The notes under the pieces were generated by a model. That model searched no databases and had not been told where the DNA came from. It saw only the letters and a program-made list of their open reading frames with translations. The translations under genes and the position numbers were made by a program. This document shows positions 4,463 through 13,892 of a DNA stretch of 43,797 bases, one piece after another. Numbering within the stretch: the first letter of the stretch is position 1; each line of letters starts with the position of its first letter. The stretch comes from an uncultured Oscillospiraceae bacterium (GTDB taxonomy: Bacteria; Bacillota; Clostridia; Oscillospirales; Ruminococcaceae): positions 1 to 43,797 of the forward strand of contig CASGDD010000170.1 of NCBI GenBank assembly GCA_949300115.1, written 5' to 3'.

Positions 4463-5713
4463 TTACCGGCGCGCCTTGGCGGCGCGCAGCGCGAGAATCC
4501 GCTGCATCTCGTTGTAGACGATCATATAGCCCTCGTCGACGCCCATGCCGGGTTTGGCAAGGATCTGATCGGCGTCGGTGGCCATGGCGATGTGGGTGCA
4601 GACCTGGGCCGAACGGTCGGTCTCGTTGCAGGTACCGCCCTGATAGGCGCCGATGCCCTTCGATTTGCAGTAGAGCACCGCCTCGGCGATGTTGTTGATG
4701 CCGCCGAGATCGGGGGTCTTGATCTGCAGCATGTGGCCGGCCTTGTTGTCGGCGAAATACCGGATATCCTCGAGGGTGTTGCACCACTCGTCGGCGACGA
4801 TCTCCACCCCGATGCCGCGCTCATCGAGCGTACGGCGGAGCTCGCGCAGGGCGATCATCTGGCCCTCCCGCTCACCGACATCCATCGGGCCCTCGATCCG
4901 CAGGTGGAAGGGCTTCGCCATCGCTTCCAGCTCGGCCAGATAGTCGGCCATCGCCGGGTAGTTGTTGTTGCCGAAGATCAGCCCGATGGTGCCATAGACG
5001 TCGATGTGGAAGATGGGCTGGTAGTCATCCGACAGGCGCAGCTGCAGGATGCGGTCACGCAGCCAGCCGACATACTCCTTGAGCAGTTCGCCCTGCTTGC
5101 CGAGCTTCTCCTCGACGTTGTTGATCAGCGCGTGGGGCAGTACATCCGAGCCTTTGAGGATCATCTTGTCGGTACCGGCATAGCGGTCGTCGCCCGACTG
5201 GGAGAAGATGGGGATGGGATGGTCGTTGACCTGGGTGCCGTACTCGTCGGCAATGACCTCGCACATCAGCCGGTGGGACGCTTTGGCGGCGGCGTCGAGG
5301 ATCGCCTGGGTGACACCGTAGCGCAGCGCGGTATGCAGCCGCTTGCCATCCAGCTCGTAGCGGTCGATCATCTCGGCGAGCGGCCGGAACGCGCCCGCCT
5401 CCTTGCCGACCAGCATCGGTTTGATCACCTGCTCGATCACCGGAATGAAATCGTCGGCGAGGAAGAGGGGATCCCGACCGCCGCAGCCGGAGTACTGGAC
5501 GGCGGCGCAGTCGCCCTGGGCAATCTGGCCGTCCTCCAGAAGCAGCATGACCGAAATGGCCTCGCCCGGCTGCCGGACCGCCTTGAAGCCGTCGGTCATC
5601 GGCGCGCCGAAGTAGGCGTTGCCCTCGTGACGGGCGCCCGCTTTGATGGCCCGCTGGTCGTCAAAGAAGAAGCCGGTACGTCCCTTTGCACAGATCACAT
5701 CGATGATTTTCAT
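4463..5713 (-). CDS. mal: Methylaspartate ammonia-lyase
   Basis: This 416-residue enolase-superfamily enzyme removes ammonia from (2S,3S)-3-methylaspartate to give mesaconate, the second step of the methylaspartate route of glutamate fermentation. Residues expected from the Clostridium tetanomorphum enzyme (413 residues) are present at nearly the same numbers. H194 is in LPHALIN. The magnesium ligands are D238, E274 and D308 (HIDVYG, RIEGP, VADEW). The catalytic lysine is K332 in QIKTPDLGGI. ATG 5713 starts the conserved MKIIDVICA. The upstream frame extension is rejected because AAGAAGG lies ten bases before 5713. It is the last gene of the glm operon, 91 bases after glmE, with a GC-rich intercistronic hairpin. 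Confidence in the family is high. Confidence 0.96.
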   Translation of the reverse strand: MKIIDVICAKGRTGFFFDDQRAIKAGARHEGNAYFGAPMTDGFKAVRQPGEAISVMLLLEDGQIAQGDCAAVQYSGCGGRDPLFLADDFIPVIEQVIKPMLVGKEAGAFRPLAEMIDRYELDGKRLHTALRYGVTQAILDAAAKASHRLMCEVIADEYGTQVNDHPIPIFSQSGDDRYAGTDKMILKGSDVLPHALINNVEEKLGKQGELLKEYVGWLRDRILQLRLSDDYQPIFHIDVYGTIGLIFGNNNYPAMADYLAELEAMAKPFHLRIEGPMDVGEREGQMIALRELRRTLDERGIGVEIVADEWCNTLEDIRYFADNKAGHMLQIKTPDLGGINNIAEAVLYCKSKGIGAYQGGTCNETDRSAQVCTHIAMATDADQILAKPGMGVDEGYMIVYNEMQRILALRAAKARR

Positions 5714-5804: not shown

Positions 5805-7256
5805 TTATCCCCGCGGCCGTCCAACCAGCCGCCCCTTGCTGATGGCATAGATGTCGTCGATGACCATCTGGAAGGAAGCCTTGCGCTTCTCCGCCTTGGC
5901 GCGCAGATCGATCATCTCGCGATGGTAGTCGAGGATCTCCTTCGAGAGGGGCACCGCGCCCGGCTCGAGGATGCGCACCGCGCCAAAGTGGTCACGGGCG
6001 GGCAGCATCTTGCCGGCGTTGTAGCGGCTGGGCGCAAAGGGGACGTCGAGGACGCCGGCCTGGAAGGCGCGCACCGCGCCCAGCGCGATATCCCCCTCAC
6101 CGAGTTCGAAGCATTTGTCCAGGATGCAGCGGGTCTCGGCCAGGGTGATGTCAATCTCCTTCTGGACATCCTCCGAATGGTAGACCTGGTCGGAGAGCAT
6201 CGAAATGGTCTGCTTGGTGCAGCGCAGGCCCTGGGCGTTGGCCTCCTTGGTGGGGATGCCCATCGCCTCGTGCGGGCTCTTGGTGATGACCTTGGTCGCG
6301 CCCGAGAAGGCGGCTGCAGCGCTGCCCCAGGCGATGACGCCGAACGCCTGCGCCTCATCCTGCGGGAAGCCGCCCATCCACTGGTGGAAGACGGTGGTGA
6401 CCTCGCAGTCGGTGTAGCCGTAGCGCTCGAGATATTCGTCGGTGATCATCGCGAGCGAGCGGATGGCGGCGACATCCTGGTTGAGGTTGCCGAGCTGTCC
6501 GTAGCCGACGCTGATGTTTTTGACCCCCTGCTCGGCGGCCAGCAGCGCCTCGATGACGGCAACCGCGTGGGAGATGCAGGGCGGTACCAGCGTCCCAGTC
6601 AGCGGTCCGAACGGCTCGCGGTTGATCGGCACCCCCGCCTCCTCGTAGAAGCCCACCAGCCGGTCGGCATACTGCCAGTCGGCAATCGTCTTCTCGAGGG
6701 GCACGCTCTTGGCATAGGGGATGTTGTAGGAGATGCCGCCGCCCTCATAGCTGGTAAAGCCGCCGGCGAGGCTGATCTCGGTGAGCAGACGGGCGTCGGG
6801 GGTGCCGTGACGGATCTGAACCGGCACATCGATCGCTTCGATGATGGCCCGGCAGCCGGCAATGCCGTGGTTGACGGCCGGGAAGCCGTTGAGGGCGGAT
6901 TTGCCCGTCTTGATCGACTCCTCGATGCCGATGTCCGCCTCGTGGTAGCGGTTCTGGCGGGTGTAGCTGTCGATGGTGGTCGGCAGCAGGTCGGCCTGTC
7001 CTTCGTTCTGCAGGTGGGTCAGCAGCTCGATGTGCTTGTCGATCAGTGCGACGCCGGCGCGCGGCTGGGTGAGGGTGCGGCCCTCCCTTTTGGCGGCGCT
7101 GAGCTTGCGGGAGAAGATCTTCGACTCGGGCAGAGCTTTGTGGTAGGCGACCGCCTCCTCAAAGTTGACATCCTTGCCGGTCGGCCAGCCGGTTAAAATC
7201 TCCTGCTGGATTGCGCGGAATTCCCCCTCGGGGATTTTTTTGTTTTTCAGTTCCAT
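5805..7256 (-). CDS. glmE: Glutamate mutase epsilon (catalytic) subunit
   Basis: This 483-residue TIM-barrel subunit of coenzyme-B12-dependent glutamate mutase interconverts (S)-glutamate and (2S,3S)-3-methylaspartate. The length matches clostridial GlmE/MutE. The three arginines known to clamp the substrate carboxylates occur at the published numbers R66 (QPRAG), R100 (YTRQN) and R149 (QIRHG). E171, Y177 and Y181 ([13 protein letters not shown]) are likewise present at the expected positions. It partners with the B12-binding GlmS. The start has AGGAGG six bases upstream. It follows glmL by 55 bases in the order glmS-glmL-glmE-mal, the order known from glutamate-fermenting clostridia. This is among the firmest functional calls in the window. 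Confidence 0.97.
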
Positions 7257-7311: not shown

Positions 7312-8688
7312 TCAGGCGGGAACGAGCTCCCGTTTCATGATCCGCAGGGCCGCATCGGGATAGTGTTCGCTGAGCAGACCCATGCCGGCGAGAATATACC
7401 GCCGGTCGACCAGGACCGACGCCTCGGTCGGCATCAGCGCGTAGGGATCGCTGCGGTTCTGCAGGGCGAACTGGGCGATCTCAGCCACCCGGTCGGAGTG
7501 GATGATCGCGCCGCCGGTCATGATGAGCTGGTGAACGAGGGTGAGGTCCTTGCCGGTCTGGGCAAACGCCTCGCCCATCGGGGTGTAGATCTGTTCGAGC
7601 CGTCCGGCATGGCGGCGAACGGCGGTCTCGACCGCCACCGAGGCGAGCGCCCCATCCAACCGGCGCAGTTCGTCGGTATCGGGCAGCGTGTCGGTGTGGC
7701 TGCCGAGGTAGTCGATCAGCTCGGCGGTACGGTCCTCGTCGATGCCGGCCATCTGGGCGATCCGGGGGATGCCGCCCGCGTCGGCGATGCCGTGGATCGA
7801 GTAGCGCATGCCGATGTCCCCCTCGACCGTCCGCTTGTTGCGCGGTTCGGTCAGCCCCTTCAAGATGGTGTTGAGGCGGGTGGGAGAGCCGTCGCAGATC
7901 GAATAGACGTCGGTGGTGGCCCCGCCGAGATCGACCGCGACCAGGTCGCCGAGGCCCGGTTCGTTCTCGGTGCCGTTTGCGAGCAGCTTCATCGCGGTGA
8001 GCATGGCGGCGGGGGTGGGCATCATGATGCCCGAAATGAGCTCCATCGCTTTGGAGAGCCCCTTCGCCTGGATAATCCGTTCGAGGAAGATGGCGCGGAT
8101 AGTCTCCTGGGTCGGCTCGATGTTGGTGACGCCGAAGCGGGGCATGACATTTTCGCAGATCCGAACGGTCCAGCCGTCGAGCAGCTTGGCGCATTTCGCC
8201 GAAGCCGACCGGTTGCCGGCGATGACCACCGGGCAGAGGGGCGGAATCTTGGCAAGTGCCTCGGCGTTGTGCAGAATACAGGCCGAATTGCCTCCGTCGG
8301 TGCCGCCGGTCAGCAGCAGGATGTCCGGCTTCGCGGCGGCGATATCCTCGATATCCTCCTCGGTGAGTTCGTAGGAATAGACCCCGATGACCTTGGCGCC
8401 GGCGCCGAGGCTGGCGAGCCGGGCCGCTTCGGCGGTCAGTTCGGGAACCAGTCCGCTGGTGATCATCCGCAGTCCGCCGGCGGCCGACGAGCAGGCATAC
8501 CGTTCGGCGAATGCGAGCGGGCCGGTTGTCTTCTCCAGCGCCGCCAGGGCATTCTGCAGCCCCTCGCCGATGTCGGTCTCGACCGTCGTGTAGCTGGCGG
8601 CGGTGCCGAGCAGCACCTCACCCTCGACGTCGACGGCGGTCACCTTGGTGTAGGTGCTGCCGAAATCGATGAGCAGAACCGGTTTCAT
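7312..8688 (-). CDS. glmL: Glutamate mutase reactivation protein GlmL (MutL)
   Basis: This 458-residue ASKHA-fold (actin/Hsp70-like) ATPase belongs to the family that reactivates glutamate mutase by exchanging damaged cobalamin. The N-terminal phosphate-1 motif is [16 protein letters not shown] (residues 4-19). The second phosphate motif is [13 protein letters not shown] near residue 250. LLTGGTDGG lies between them. It is not the DNA-repair MutL, despite the shared old name. Its ATG overlaps the glmS stop codon in an ATGA (8685-8688), so translation is probably coupled to glmS. Length and order match clostridial operons. The reactivase role comes from work on the family, not from this sequence. 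Confidence 0.93.
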
Positions 8689-9125
8689 ACCGTTTCGTCC
8701 TCCTTGGGAGGGGGTGTCACGCCGAGATCCTCGTAGAGGCAGGCGATGGTCGTTTCAACCGGTGTGCCGGGACCGAATACCCGGTCGAAGCCCATCTCCT
8801 TAAAGTGCTTCTCCACCTCGGGGAAGGGCTGCTTGCCGATGACGATGTTGCCGCCGACATAGAGAAGGATGCCCTCAAGACCGGCCTCATCGCACTTCTG
8901 CCGCAGTCCCCTGCAGTCGAGCTCGCCGTGCCCATAGAGGGAGGAGACGACAATCGCGTCGGCGTCCGATTCGATCGCCGCGGCGATGAACTCCTCCTGG
9001 GAGACGAGCACCCCCAGATTGATGACGTTAAAGCCCGCCTCGGTGAACGCGTAGTAGAGAATTTTGTTGCCCACCGCGTGCACGTCGGCGCCGATGACGC
9101 CCATGACCAGAGTTTTCTTTTCCAT
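8685..9125 (-). CDS. glmS: Glutamate mutase sigma (B12-binding) subunit
   Basis: This 146-residue Rossmann-like domain binds adenosylcobalamin in the base-off/His-on mode. The signature DVHAVG (D14, H16, G19) supplies the histidine that coordinates cobalt. SSLYGHGE and YVGGN further on match the cofactor-tail pocket of GlmS/MutS. It is slightly longer than the 137-residue clostridial prototype, with extra residues at the acidic C-terminus (PPPKEDETV). ATG 9125 begins [16 protein letters not shown] and has AAGAGGT upstream; a frame extension to 9155 is not supported. It is the first gene of the operon, about 40 bases after the predicted transcription start, so the leader is too short for a cobalamin riboswitch. 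It is not the mismatch-repair MutS. Confidence 0.96.
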
Positions 9126-9157: not shown

Positions 9158-9190
9158 TTGTTCTATGTCTATAAGATACATTGAACTAGG
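9158..9190. promoter_or_regulatory. Candidate regulator binding sites overlapping the glm promoter
   Basis: TTGTTCTA (9158-9165) and TTGAACTAG (9181-9189) lie on either side of the glm -10 box. The same words recur as TGAACTAGAACAA inside the opposite promoter (9376-9388). Shared words within both divergent promoter spacers suggest a common operator. The GntR protein encoded in the rightward operon is the natural candidate ligand, but that link is inference. Confidence 0.5.
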
Positions 9191-9201
9191 CCATATGTCA
9201 A
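9173..9201 (-). promoter_or_regulatory. Sigma-A promoter of the glmS-glmL-glmE-mal operon
   Basis: On the - strand a perfect -35 TTGACA (9201-9196) is followed, after 17 bases, by -10 TATCTT (9178-9173). The start of transcription would fall near 9166, giving a leader of about 40 bases before the glmS ATG. Confidence 0.85.
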
Positions 9202-9260
9202 TTCCTCAAAAGGTCAAAAGCTCCCAAAAATGAAGGATGAATGTCATCTATTTTGCTCAA

Positions 9261-9278
9261 ATGCAGAGCAGGCTGCAT
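9261..9278. promoter_or_regulatory. Inverted repeat between the divergent promoters
   Basis: ATGCAG (9261-9266) and CTGCAT (9273-9278) form a six-base inverted repeat with a six-base spacer in the AT-rich middle of the divergent region. It could bind a dimeric regulator. Nothing in the sequence shows which. Confidence 0.3.
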
Positions 9279-9305
9279 AAAAGGGCAAAAATAAGAGGGG
9301 CACTC

Positions 9306-9343
9306 GACGCTGCCGGCCGATGAAGGCCGGCGAAGGGACCGTC
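9306..9343. other. GC-rich hairpin island between divergent promoters
   Basis: GCCGGCC (9312-9318) pairs with GGCCGGC (9325-9331) around GATGAA, with a possible outer GACG/CGTC pair (9306-9309, 9340-9343). It sits in a GC-rich block (about 9298-9365) flanked by AT-rich DNA. Neither predicted promoter would transcribe it. No T-run follows on either strand. Its role is unknown. Confidence 0.4.
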
Positions 9344-9367
9344 TTCCACCGGGATGATCCAGCCTAC

Positions 9368-9396
9368 TTGACAAATGAACTAGAACAATATATCAT
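9368..9396 (+). promoter_or_regulatory. Sigma-A promoter of the hydratase-GntR operon
   Basis: A perfect -35 TTGACA (9368-9373), a 17-base spacer and -10 TATCAT (9391-9396). The spacer contains TGAACTAGAACAA, sharing TGAACTAG with the spacer of the divergent glm promoter. Transcription would start near 9403. Confidence 0.85.
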
Positions 9397-9514: not shown

Positions 9515-10351
9515 ATGCGTGAAATCCACGCCGAGCAGATCACCGAGGTGGTGGCGAGGCTCTGTTCGGAGGCCAACCGGCAGCTGCCCGACGATGTGCG
9601 CCGGACGATCCGTGCGGCCCGTGCAGCGGAGGACTGGCAGCCCGCCTGCGAAATTCTCGACCGGATTATCGACAACTTTGAGCTGGCCGGCGAGGTGCCC
9701 ATCTGCCAGGACACCGGCATGGCCTGCGTCTTTCTCGAGATCGGCCAGGAGGTGCATATCACGGGGGATCTGCACGAGGCGGTCAACCGCGGGGTGGCGA
9801 AGGGCTATACCGAGGGCTATCTGCGCAAATCGGTGGTGCGCGACCCCATCTTCGACCGGGTCAATACCGGCGACAACACCCCGGCCATGCTCACCATCGA
9901 TCTGGTGCCGGGGGACAGGGTGACGATCACCGTCGCCCCCAAGGGCTTCGGCAGCGAGAATATGTCCCGCATTGCGATGCTCCGCCCCTCCGACGGATTG
10001 GCGGGGGTCAAGGCGTTTGTGCTGGAGACGGTCGAGCAGGCGGGCCCCAACCCCTGCCCGCCCATCATGGTCGGTGTTGGGGTCGGCGGCACCTTCGACA
10101 AGGCGGCGCTGCTTGCCAAAAAGGCGCTGATGCGCCCGATGGACGACCAAAACCCCGATCCCAACTATGCCGCCCTCGAAGCGGAGCTGCTTGCGAGCAT
10201 CAACGCGCTCGGCATTGGGCCGCAGGGCTTCGGCGGCCGGACCACCGCGCTCGCCGTCAAGGTCAACGCCCTGCCCACCCACATCGCTGGGCTGCCCTGT
10301 GCGGTCAACATCAACTGCCATGTGACACGGCATAAAACGGAGGTGCTTTGA
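9515..10351 (+). CDS. Class I fumarate hydratase-type alpha subunit, predicted mesaconase
   Basis: This 278-residue protein is the iron-sulfur catalytic subunit of a two-subunit class I fumarase (TtdA/FumA N-terminal family). Three conserved cysteines that can hold the 4Fe-4S cluster are C64 (PICQDTG), C181 (NPCPP) and C268 (INCHVTRHK). The glycine-rich GVGVGGTFDKA stretch is also typical. Family members hydrate fumarate, mesaconate or dehydrate tartrate. Here the divergent mal gene supplies mesaconate, so hydration of mesaconate to (S)-citramalate is the likely reaction. That is inferred from context, since sequence alone does not separate mesaconase from fumarase. ATG 9515 begins MREIHAEQ and has AAGGAGG upstream; an extension to 9422 is not supported. 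Confidence 0.9.
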   Translation: MREIHAEQITEVVARLCSEANRQLPDDVRRTIRAARAAEDWQPACEILDRIIDNFELAGEVPICQDTGMACVFLEIGQEVHITGDLHEAVNRGVAKGYTEGYLRKSVVRDPIFDRVNTGDNTPAMLTIDLVPGDRVTITVAPKGFGSENMSRIAMLRPSDGLAGVKAFVLETVEQAGPNPCPPIMVGVGVGGTFDKAALLAKKALMRPMDDQNPDPNYAALEAELLASINALGIGPQGFGGRTTALAVKVNALPTHIAGLPCAVNINCHVTRHKTEVL

Positions 10352-10352
10352 G

Positions 10353-10916
10353 ATGGCACATTATGATCTGACGACCCCGCTGTCGCCGGAAACCGTCCGC
10401 ATGCTGCAGGCGGGCGACAGCGTGACCCTTTCGGGCATCATCTACACCGCCAGGGACGCGGCACATAAGCGGCTGGTCGAGCTGGTGGAGGCGGGCAAAC
10501 CGCTCCCCTTCGAGGTCGAGGGCGCGGTGATCTACTTTGTCGGCCCGACGCCGGCGCCGCCGGGACACGCGGTGGGCGCGGCCGGCCCGACGACCAGCTA
10601 TCGGATGGACGCCTACTCCCCCACCCTCATCCGGCTCGGCCTGCGCGGCATGATCGGCAAGGGCAAGCGGGGGGAAGCGGTTGTCGAGGCGATGCGGCGG
10701 TACGGTGCCGTCTACTTCGGTGCCATCGGCGGCGCCGGCGCGCTCATCTCCCAGTGTATCCGGCAGTCGGAGGTGATCGCCTATCCCGACCTCGGCGCCG
10801 AAGCCATCCATAAATTTACGGTGGAGCGGATGCCGCTGACCGTGGTGATCGACAGCGAGGGACGCAACCTCTATCAGGAGGGGCGCCGGACCTACCTCGC
10901 TGGCCGAAAGGATTGA
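10353..10916 (+). CDS. Class I fumarate hydratase-type beta subunit, predicted mesaconase
   Basis: This 187-residue partner subunit corresponds to the C-terminal domain of one-chain class I fumarases. Recognisable stretches are the opening LTTPLSPETVRMLQAGDSV, GPTTSYRMD, GKGKRG and the glycine-rich YFGAIGGAGALIS, then DLGAEAIHKF. Length is normal for the separate beta subunit. It starts one base after the alpha stop codon, with GGAGG just inside the end of the alpha gene, so the subunits are translationally linked. It should form an alpha2beta2 enzyme with the upstream product and act on mesaconate or fumarate. Confidence 0.9.
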   Translation: MAHYDLTTPLSPETVRMLQAGDSVTLSGIIYTARDAAHKRLVELVEAGKPLPFEVEGAVIYFVGPTPAPPGHAVGAAGPTTSYRMDAYSPTLIRLGLRGMIGKGKRGEAVVEAMRRYGAVYFGAIGGAGALISQCIRQSEVIAYPDLGAEAIHKFTVERMPLTVVIDSEGRNLYQEGRRTYLAGRKD

Positions 10917-10920
10917 TGCT

Positions 10921-11916
10921 ATGCAGATCAAAATCGACCGGGACAGCCGCCAGACGGTCTATATGCAGATTGTCGAGCAGGTGTCGGCGGCGGTGGAGGG
11001 CGGGCAGCTTGCCCCCGATACCCGGCTGCCGACCGTGCGCGAGCTGGCCGACAGCCTCGACATCGCGAGAGGCACGGTCAAGCACGCCTACGACGAGCTG
11101 GAAAAGCGCGGCGTCATCCGGATGATCCAGGGGCGGGGGACCTTTGTGCATGGCCGGCGGGAGCGGCCGCTCGGCAAGAAGGAGCGGGCGATGCAGGCGA
11201 TCGGCGCGCTCTTTGAGGAGCTGGGCAGCCTGGGCTTTTCGCCGCAGGAGATCCGCATCTTTTTAAGCCTCAAGCTGCGCGAGCTGGAGGAGCTGGGCGA
11301 CGGGATCCTGATCTTCCTAGTCGACTGCAGCCCCGAATCGCTGGCGATGCTCGAGGGGAGGCTTGCCGGCCAGGCGGATATCGAGACCTATCGGATGCTG
11401 CTCGATGAGGCGCTGGCTTCCTCCGAAAACTTTGCCGGCCAGGCCGATCTCATCGTGACCACCGCCACCCACTATGTCCAGCTGCGGGATGCGATGCAGA
11501 ATCCCGACCGGCTGATGCAGGTGGTGATGACCCCCACCCACGAGACGATCGTCGACCTTGCCAAGCTGGGCGAGGCGAAGCTGGGCATCGTCTGCGCGAG
11601 CGAACGGTTTGCCCAGGTCATCCGGCACAGCTGTGAGGCGCTGGGGATCAACATCGGGGAGGAGAGCATCTTTCTGTTCGGGGAGGAGGGGCTGGAGCGC
11701 TTCCTCGAGACGCGGGACGCCATTCTGCTGCCCCCCAACTACCTGCGCTTCTGCAGCGCCTCGGAGGGGGCCCTGCTTTCGGAGGCACACGGCCGGGGAA
11801 AGAGCCTGATTCCCTACGAGTACCAGCTGGACGGCGGGTCGCTGCTCATGTTTAAGGAACGGATTGCCTCGATCCGGCGGCAGAAAAACCGCCTGATCCG
11901 CCCGGAAAGCCGCTGA
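10921..11916 (+). CDS. GntR-family transcriptional regulator with a large C-terminal sensor domain
   Basis: This 331-residue regulator has an N-terminal GntR winged helix (residues 1-75; LPTVRELADSLDIARGTVKHAYDELEKRGVIRMIQGRGTFV). It continues with a domain of about 250 residues with alternating beta and alpha character (DLIVTTATHYVQLRD, KLGIVCASERFAQVIRHS, DAILLPPNY). This resembles a periplasmic-binding-protein-like sensor, longer than the small YtrA-type GntR proteins. It starts four bases after the hydratase beta stop, so it is the third gene of the operon. The predicted role is control of both divergent operons in answer to a pathway metabolite such as glutamate or mesaconate, an inference from position. 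A 16-base direct repeat spans its stop codon (11893-11908 and 11913-11928). Confidence 0.85.
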   Translation: MQIKIDRDSRQTVYMQIVEQVSAAVEGGQLAPDTRLPTVRELADSLDIARGTVKHAYDELEKRGVIRMIQGRGTFVHGRRERPLGKKERAMQAIGALFEELGSLGFSPQEIRIFLSLKLRELEELGDGILIFLVDCSPESLAMLEGRLAGQADIETYRMLLDEALASSENFAGQADLIVTTATHYVQLRDAMQNPDRLMQVVMTPTHETIVDLAKLGEAKLGIVCASERFAQVIRHSCEALGINIGEESIFLFGEEGLERFLETRDAILLPPNYLRFCSASEGALLSEAHGRGKSLIPYEYQLDGGSLLMFKERIASIRRQKNRLIRPESR

Positions 11917-12030: not shown

Positions 12031-12112
12031 GATGTAAAGAAAAAATCCTTGACAGCGGGGCGGCTTTTCCGTATAATGTGGAAAGCAGGGATGTAAAGAC
12101 ACGTGCTTTACA
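12031..12112. promoter_or_regulatory. Direct and inverted TGTAAAG repeats flanking the ylxM promoter
   Basis: GATGTAAAGA occurs at 12031-12040, just before the -35 box, and at 12090-12099, just after the expected transcription start. The second copy also forms an inverted repeat with CTTTACA at 12106-12112. Such paired sites around a promoter suggest an operator for an unknown regulator or an early hairpin in the transcript. Confidence 0.4.
12049..12077 (+). promoter_or_regulatory. Consensus sigma-A promoter of the ylxM-ffh operon
   Basis: TTGACA (12049-12054), 17 bases, TATAAT (12072-12077): both boxes match the sigma-A consensus perfectly. It drives ylxM and probably the ffh-to-trmD string behind it. 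Confidence 0.93.
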
Positions 12113-12530: not shown

Positions 12531-13892
12531 ATGGCCTTTGAAAGTCTTTCGGATAAGCTGGCCGCGGCCTTTAAAAAGCTTCGCTCGAAGGGCAAGCTCA
12601 CCGAGGCGGATGTCCGCGAATCGATGCGGGAGGTGCGTCTCGCGCTGCTCGAGGCGGATGTCAACTTCAAGGTGGCCCGCGACTTTATCAAATCGGTGAC
12701 CGAGAAATGCGTGGGGGAGACGGTGCTTTCCTCGCTGACCCCCGCCCAGCAGGTCATCAAAATTGTCAACGACGAACTCATCGCGCTGATGGGCGGCGAG
12801 CAGAGCCGCATCCACCAGAATTCCAAGGGGCCGACCGTCATCATGATGTGCGGCCTGCAGGGCTCGGGTAAAACCACCCATTCGGCCAAACTGGCCCGCA
12901 TGTTCCGTTCGGAGGGCAAACGCCCGCTGCTGGTGGCCTGCGACATCTACCGCCCGGCTGCCATTGAACAGCTCAAGGTTGTCGGCGAGCGGGCCAATAC
13001 GCCCGTCTTCGAGATGGGTCAGACCGATCCGGTTGAGATTGCCAAGGCGGCCCTCCGGCACGCGAAGGACTACGGCAACGATTTTGTCATCCTCGATACC
13101 GCCGGCCGCCTGCACATCGACGAGGTGCTGATGGAGGAGCTCAAGCGGATCAAGGAGGCGGTCCATCCGGATGAGATCCTGCTGGTGGTCGACGCGATGA
13201 CCGGTCAGGACGCCGTCAACGTCGCCCAGTCGTTCAATGAGGCCCTCGGCATCGACGGGGTCATCCTCACCAAGCTCGACGGCGATACCCGCGGCGGCGC
13301 GGCGCTGTCGGTCCGGGCGGTCACCGGCAAGCCGATCAAATTTATGGGTACCGGCGAGAAGCTCGACGACCTCGAGCCCTTCCATCCCGCCCGCATGGCC
13401 TCCCGGATCCTCGGGATGGGCGACGTGCTCACCCTCATCGAGAAGGCGCAGCAGAACCTCGATGAAGAGCAGGCGATGGAGCAGTACCGCAAGATCAAGG
13501 AAAACAGCTTCGATATGAACGACCTGCTCGCCCAGATGCGCCAGCTGAGGAGCATGGGCCCGCTGCAGCAGGTGCTTTCGATGCTCCCCGGGGTGGGCAG
13601 CCAGCTCAAGAACATCGAGATCGACGACAACGAGATCTACTTCGGCGAGGCGATCATCCTCTCGATGACCGAGGAGGAGCGCCGCAAGCCGGCCATCATC
13701 AACCCCAGCCGCAAGCGGCGGATTGCCGCCGGTTCGGGCAGACGGGTGGAGGATGTCAACAAGCTGCTGAAGATGCACCGGGATATGCAGAAGATGATGA
13801 AGCAGGTCACCGGCATGAACAAGGGCGGCAAGATGGGCAAGAAGCGCCGCCGCGGCCTGCAGCTGCCGCCCGGATTCCCCGGCATGTCCTAA
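12531..13892 (+). CDS. ffh: Signal recognition particle GTPase Ffh
   Basis: This 453-residue SRP54 protein binds 4.5S/6S-type SRP RNA and signal sequences of nascent chains and docks with FtsY at the membrane. The N domain spans residues 1-90. The G domain has the P-loop GLQGSGKTT at 108-116, DTAGRLH and TKLDGDTRGGAALS. A methionine-rich M domain follows from about residue 300 (MRQLRSMGPLQQVLSMLPGVG, then MHRDMQKMMKQVTGM). Length is typical. AAGGAGA upstream of ATG sets the start. The SRP RNA gene itself was not seen in the window. Confidence 0.97.
   Translation: MAFESLSDKLAAAFKKLRSKGKLTEADVRESMREVRLALLEADVNFKVARDFIKSVTEKCVGETVLSSLTPAQQVIKIVNDELIALMGGEQSRIHQNSKGPTVIMMCGLQGSGKTTHSAKLARMFRSEGKRPLLVACDIYRPAAIEQLKVVGERANTPVFEMGQTDPVEIAKAALRHAKDYGNDFVILDTAGRLHIDEVLMEELKRIKEAVHPDEILLVVDAMTGQDAVNVAQSFNEALGIDGVILTKLDGDTRGGAALSVRAVTGKPIKFMGTGEKLDDLEPFHPARMASRILGMGDVLTLIEKAQQNLDEEQAMEQYRKIKENSFDMNDLLAQMRQLRSMGPLQQVLSMLPGVGSQLKNIEIDDNEIYFGEAIILSMTEEERRKPAIINPSRKRRIAAGSGRRVEDVNKLLKMHRDMQKMMKQVTGMNKGGKMGKKRRRGLQLPPGFPGMS

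Follow-up and report, generated by a model that had tools for sequence, protein, structure and literature searches.

The window, by which we mean the whole 43,797-nucleotide (43.8-kb) stretch of DNA analyzed here, carries a gene cluster for glutamate fermentation through methylaspartate, a classic anaerobic pathway that we found in many gut and rumen genomes. The cluster is organized as two divergent operons (Table 1). The leftward operon reads glmS, glmL, glmE and mal; the rightward operon encodes the alpha and beta subunits of a fumA/fumB-type hydratase followed by a GntR-family regulator, with gaps of only 1 bp (alpha/beta subunit) and 4 bp (beta subunit/gntR). Given this order, the regulator is the third gene of one of its two proposed target operons. 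Just downstream of gntR, at 12049-12077, we also noted a perfect consensus promoter, TTGACA-17-TATAAT (12/12), in front of the gene region that extends to an ffh-like gene (12531-13892).

Table 1. Genes, promoter cores and predicted operators of the glutamate-fermentation locus (positions are those of the window)
Feature	Position	Strand	Basis or detail
glmS, glutamate (methylaspartate) mutase subunit S; gene 1 of leftward operon	8685..9125	-	TIGR01501 and PRK02261 above cut-off
glmL, mutase accessory protein	7312..8688	-	NF040745 above cut-off
glmE, glutamate mutase subunit E	5805..7256	-	TIGR01503 above cut-off
mal, methylaspartate ammonia-lyase (start codon approximate)	4463..5713	-	TIGR01502 above cut-off
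fumA-type hydratase alpha subunit (mesaconase/fumarase, class I)	9515..10351	+	PRK06246, PF05681
fumB-type hydratase beta subunit	10353..10916	+	PRK06842, PF05683
gntR, GntR-family regulator	10921..11916	+	PF00392 at residues 14-76
glmS promoter core	9173..9201	-	-35 TTGACA 9201-9196, 17-bp spacer, -10 TATCTT 9178-9173
fumA promoter core	9368..9396	+	-35 TTGACA 9368-9373, 17-bp spacer, -10 TATCAT 9391-9396
Predicted operator O1, glmS promoter, TGGCCTAGTTCA; fills -35/-10 spacer	9182..9193	-	17.5 bits, window rank 2
Predicted operator O2, glmS promoter, AGACATAGAACA; just past -10, over predicted start site	9159..9170	-	16.1 bits, window rank 3
Predicted operator, fumA-fumB-gntR promoter, TGAACTAGAACA; fills -35/-10 spacer	9376..9387	+	19.6 bits, window rank 1

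In its account of the pathway, PMC4682846 (2015) assigns the role of mesaconase to a class I hydratase of the fumAB kind, and its Fig. 4 legend names as a putative regulator a GntR gene drawn in clostridial clusters of glutamate mutase, methylaspartate ammonia-lyase and mesaconase genes. We found no operator, sites or test given there for that regulator. Searches of the open-access literature turned up neither an operator described for glutamate fermentation through methylaspartate nor a tested regulator.

The original prediction held that both divergent promoters combine a TTGACA box with a 17-bp spacer and share an 8-nucleotide operator word. Both promoters are indeed of this kind (9201-9173, minus strand; 9368-9396, plus strand) and have good -10 boxes, and the words are real: TGAACTAG occurs at 9182-9189 and 9376-9383, and TTGTTCTA occurs at 9158-9165 and, inverted, at 9381-9388. 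TGAACTAG thus stands in both spacers, but its two copies are oppositely oriented relative to their own promoters, and each 8-mer is only part of the true unit, a 12-bp quasi-palindrome. This shared unit, TGWWMTAKWWCA, is centered on TA, follows the pattern TG-NN-M-TA-K-WW-CA and has its strongest positions at G2 and C11. TGAACTAG looks alike in the diverging promoters because it is the left half plus center of one quasi-palindrome and, on the opposite strand, the right half plus center of the other. We dropped the 8-mers as the functional unit in favor of the 12-bp element.

Read in the direction of transcription, TTGACA-TA-TGGCCTAGTTCA (glmS) and TTGACA-AA-TGAACTAGAACA (fumA) have an identical register, the site starting 2 bp after the -35 box. 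The fumA promoter of the window has a site at the O1 position only, whereas the glmS promoter has both O1 and O2, with O2 starting 25 bp after the -35 box, a step of 23 bp from O1. All sites overlap the core promoter in this fixed register. Most relatives have two copies as well: (i) O1, 2 bp after the -35 box and filling the spacer, and (ii) O2, 25 bp after the -35 box and just past the -10 box. The step between them is 23 bp, sometimes 24 bp, and the glmS promoter of the window matches this arrangement exactly. The same orientation of O1 and O2 raised a direct-repeat (MocR-like) reading; however, two dimer sites are simpler, because O1 and O2 are each quasi-palindromic. A riboswitch upstream of glmS was likewise set aside, as Rfam gave no match anywhere in the window.

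We ran an unsupervised, two-strand, de novo motif search on the 140-bp regions that precede glmS in 33 non-redundant relatives, with the window excluded and no hydratase promoter included. The best 16-bp motif scored 318 bits, compared to 66-87 bits in 12 sets of dinucleotide-preserving shuffles. When both strands of the window were scored with the resulting matrix, the top three positions were 9376 (+), 9178 (-) and 9155 (-), which are the three operator sites of Table 1, and the next-best position reached 12.1 bits. Across the 2.15-Mb assembly, TGAACTAG occurs twice, both times at these promoters, compared to 20 occurrences of the same word read backwards.

We then asked how widely the site is conserved and whether it is tied to this gntR. 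Scanning the named genome collection with a single sequence returned no relatives; an alignment query of a second collection returned 64 loci. These belong to Oscillospiraceae, Emergencia, Christensenella and Treponema, among others, and in the majority gntR is adjoined by fumAB and/or glmSLE-mal. Among 397 genomes of the same family, the regulator is present in 13, glmS in 20 and both in 12 (Fisher p 6e-17). In 11 of these 12 genomes the regulator adjoins glmS or is separated from it by fumAB genes only; in the twelfth (G356) it adjoins fumB on another contig. Conservation upstream of glmS had been named beforehand as one of the tests of the original prediction, and the prediction came through it: sites were called above 9 bits, and one is present upstream of glmS in 36/37 GntR-linked loci, against none in front of the 28 glmS genes examined in genomes that lack this GntR (8 from the same family and 20 from other families, the latter in genomes where the C-terminal domain described below was not found). 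The difference corresponds to a Fisher p of about 1e-17 with relatedness ignored; several families, and more than one phylum, are represented among the loci. At the same threshold, no site was found upstream of glmL, glmE or mal in these loci. As background, a site occurred in 2.9% of 220-bp windows drawn at random from these loci, in 3.8% of AT-rich windows from outside the cluster and in 1.5% of shuffled glmS upstream regions. In one same-family genome that lacks the regulator (L049), a separated glmE is preceded by an 11.3-bit site.

Conservation at the hydratase operon, the other half of that prediction, holds in part. Many relatives have a site before gntR or fumAB, but the head of the fumAB operon carries one in only 13/37 loci; hence, control of the hydratase is lineage-dependent. 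Where gntR has a promoter of its own, a site is often present there (above 9 bits in 17/61 loci), in members of the same family as well. The Treponema loci L094, L096 and L113, within which no glmS was found, also have a site before gntR. The gntR-glmS operon of G428, a diverged relative, has TGGTATATACCA and TGGAATAGACCA upstream, an altered version of this palindrome. The matrix did not find the motif in distant homologues with the same C-terminal domain adjoining glmS, and the operator is therefore established only for the closer clade. Overall, the comparative data support, with these qualifications, the earlier reading in which GntR would control both operons and its own gene.

The regulator itself has a GntR-type winged helix at its N terminus (PF00392, 54.6 bits versus a cut-off of 27). 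The full-length model (pLDDT 91.5, pTM 0.61) shows this winged helix, two helices and an alpha/beta part of about 205 residues; modeled alone, the C-terminal domain reached a pLDDT of 92.6 and a pTM of 0.85. The overall plan is thus a YtrA-like N-terminal part of about 125 residues joined to a two-lobed alpha/beta domain of about 205 residues, and the closest solved relatives by sequence are short, YtrA-like GntR proteins. The two helices at residues 86-125 are as in YtrA, but the large domain then follows in place of a short tail. The C-terminal part of the window protein matches no Pfam family, and no FCD, UTRA or aminotransferase match appeared in this protein or among the families listed for the C-terminal domains of 48 relatives. 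Structure comparison gave only weak fold matches for the C-terminal domain (TM about 0.4): sensors of the LacI type, that of PrpR, and maleate isomerase. The best is a LacI-family sensor, with an E value of 8e-5 but a TM of 0.39; PrpR and maleate isomerase score similarly. All three are two-lobed alpha/beta folds, and some bind small acids.

Across the phylum, 80 of the 398 sampled genomes carry the C-terminal domain. A glmS gene is also present in 28 of these 80 (p 3e-5), and roughly half of those 28 encode the domain no more than about 1 kb away from it. The other 52 have no glmS match, so family members there must control other genes. We see about an even chance that these proteins form an undescribed GntR subfamily, with a YtrA-like half for DNA binding and dimerization and a Pfam-less two-lobed alpha/beta sensor, often encoded beside glmS, in which the glutamate-fermentation branch would sense a C4-C5 acid of the pathway and use a paired operator spaced by 23 bp.

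Based on promoter architecture, conservation and linkage, we consider it highly likely that the 12-bp sites serve as operator for the product of gntR (10921-11916), and that this protein is an autorepressor released by a metabolite of the pathway. The presence of the same site in both promoters, conserved in place in dozens of gntR-carrying relatives, argues that the regulator very probably controls the glutamate-fermentation pathway and, via its own operon, itself. In the mechanism that we propose, a GntR dimer would bind each quasi-palindrome. The glmS promoter would hold two dimers, one in the spacer between the -35 and -10 boxes (O1) and another covering the start site, 23 bp farther downstream (O2), and the fumA-fumB-gntR promoter would hold one, in the spacer. 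Bound dimers would keep RNA polymerase off by steric block of the core promoter, as in a standard GntR repressor circuit. With two sites, the operon for glutamate mutase and methylaspartate ammonia-lyase would be strongly repressed, and the mesaconase-regulator operon, and hence the regulator itself, more loosely. Release would follow binding of a pathway metabolite to the two-lobed C-terminal domain; glutamate, or a different C4-C5 acid like methylaspartate or mesaconate, is the most probable effector.

We weighed three alternatives to this repressor circuit. The sites could be real and the GntR protein an activator or dual regulator that, for example, distorts or stabilizes the promoter with effector bound. 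MocR-branch members of the GntR family, GabR for instance, can act as activators, and the spacer in which the sites lie is also where MerR-type activators bind. However, promoter realignment would be needless here, because each promoter already combines a perfect -35 box with a spacer of optimal length (17 bp), and the position of O2 over the predicted start site fits repression; we regard activation as improbable. A second alternative, in which the sites are bound by a different transcription factor co-occurring with the pathway and the neighboring gntR is not the partner, draws on the fact that gntR linkage alone does not prove partnership. We judge it very unlikely, as among glmS-bearing genomes the site tracks this particular gntR (the 36/37 versus 0/28 above), the Treponema loci place a site before gntR where glmS was not detected, and G428 keeps a diverged palindrome upstream of gntR-glmS. 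Finally, that the words are a chance likeness of AT-rich promoters, or a promoter element without any regulator, is scarcely credible: two matches are only moderately unlikely within the window alone (reached in 5/100 window shuffles for TGAACTAG and 2/100 for TTGTTCTA) and the promoter regions are AT-rich, but TGAACTAG is unique to these promoters genome-wide, de novo recovery lies far above shuffles, O2 falls outside the -35 and -10 elements and glmS promoters without the regulator lack the site; the comparative data already contradict this reading.

The proposed repressor resembles the GntR-family repressors FadR, HutC/NagR and YtrA (Suvorova et al. 2015, PMC4494728) in its PF00392 winged-helix N terminus and in its short palindromes with an AT-rich center, as well as in having paired sites, autoregulation and a nearby site for each promoter of a divergon. 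A TA-centered palindrome is also familiar among the GntR motifs published there. Unlike those operators, however, the conserved outer pair here is TG...CA, its G and C separated by eight bases, in place of the usual GT...AC; the element departs from the GntR consensus NyGTNxACNy in that G is mostly followed by A or T and GT/AC is not conserved. The C-terminal domain likewise sets the protein apart from FadR, HutC, MocR and YtrA, being neither FCD, UTRA, an aminotransferase nor the short YtrA tail. In the YtrA subfamily the C-terminal part has about 50 residues and two helices, and published YtrA regulons are mostly single-site ABC-transporter operons (PMC4494728). AraR shares the chimeric plan of a GntR winged helix with a two-lobed alpha/beta sensor, in its case of LacI type, and LacI-type sensors are among the best fold matches here. 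In contrast to AraR, there is no periplasmic-binding Pfam match, the domain is, at about 205 residues, shorter than LacI sensors, and the fold matches are weak (TM about 0.4). Beyond the putative GntR regulator already named in the Fig. 4 legend of PMC4682846, what is new is a regulator whose sensor domain fits no Pfam family, a defined 12-bp predicted operator with an exact place in two promoters, and a matrix for finding regulon members. With operator, matrix and regulator defined, the question of what switches the pathway on is now directly testable.

Genome-wide site searches were made by pattern and not with the full matrix, and sites missing the patterns may exist. In the genome of the window, they gave a fourth strong site (17.7 bits; G000 contig C48:8128-8143, equal to L127:1496-1511), which precedes an aspartate aminotransferase (type Ic) gene (NF053594) by 69 bp and falls just past a TTGTAA-17-TACAAT promoter. 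One simulated genome of equal size contained no site of at least 16 bits. The site was not found at the orthologues in ten relatives, in some of which gene starts or orientation are uncertain. Aspartate aminotransferase may be a lineage-specific regulon member. The relatives contain other pattern matches, for example upstream of a possible sporulation gene.

Several relatives depart from the common gene arrangement. In three Treponema loci (L094, L096 and L101), gntR relatives stand beside sodium/glutamate-symporter-like and M20 amidohydrolase genes, not glm genes; the Pfam match for the symporter is in L101 only. These neighbors hint at a glutamate-related signal. A protein of about 311 residues is encoded directly upstream of fumAB in Emergencia (L083:4624-5559) and Treponema (L113:5941-6873); it has no Pfam match above family cut-off, and shows a faint likeness to P-loop and tRNA_SAD families. 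At L117:7001-7486 (the same gene as L048:8894-9379), the regulator is only 162 residues long and lacks the C-terminal sensor domain, and the operator at its own promoter is kept; this is perhaps an effector-blind repressor. Lastly, a perfect TGAACTAGTTCA palindrome lies about 185 bp upstream of glmS in L045, within a terminator-like hairpin between gntR and glmS, and TGAACTAGTCCA lies about 234 bp upstream of glmS in L044, directly after gntR. Both are extra operator-like sites, away from the promoters.
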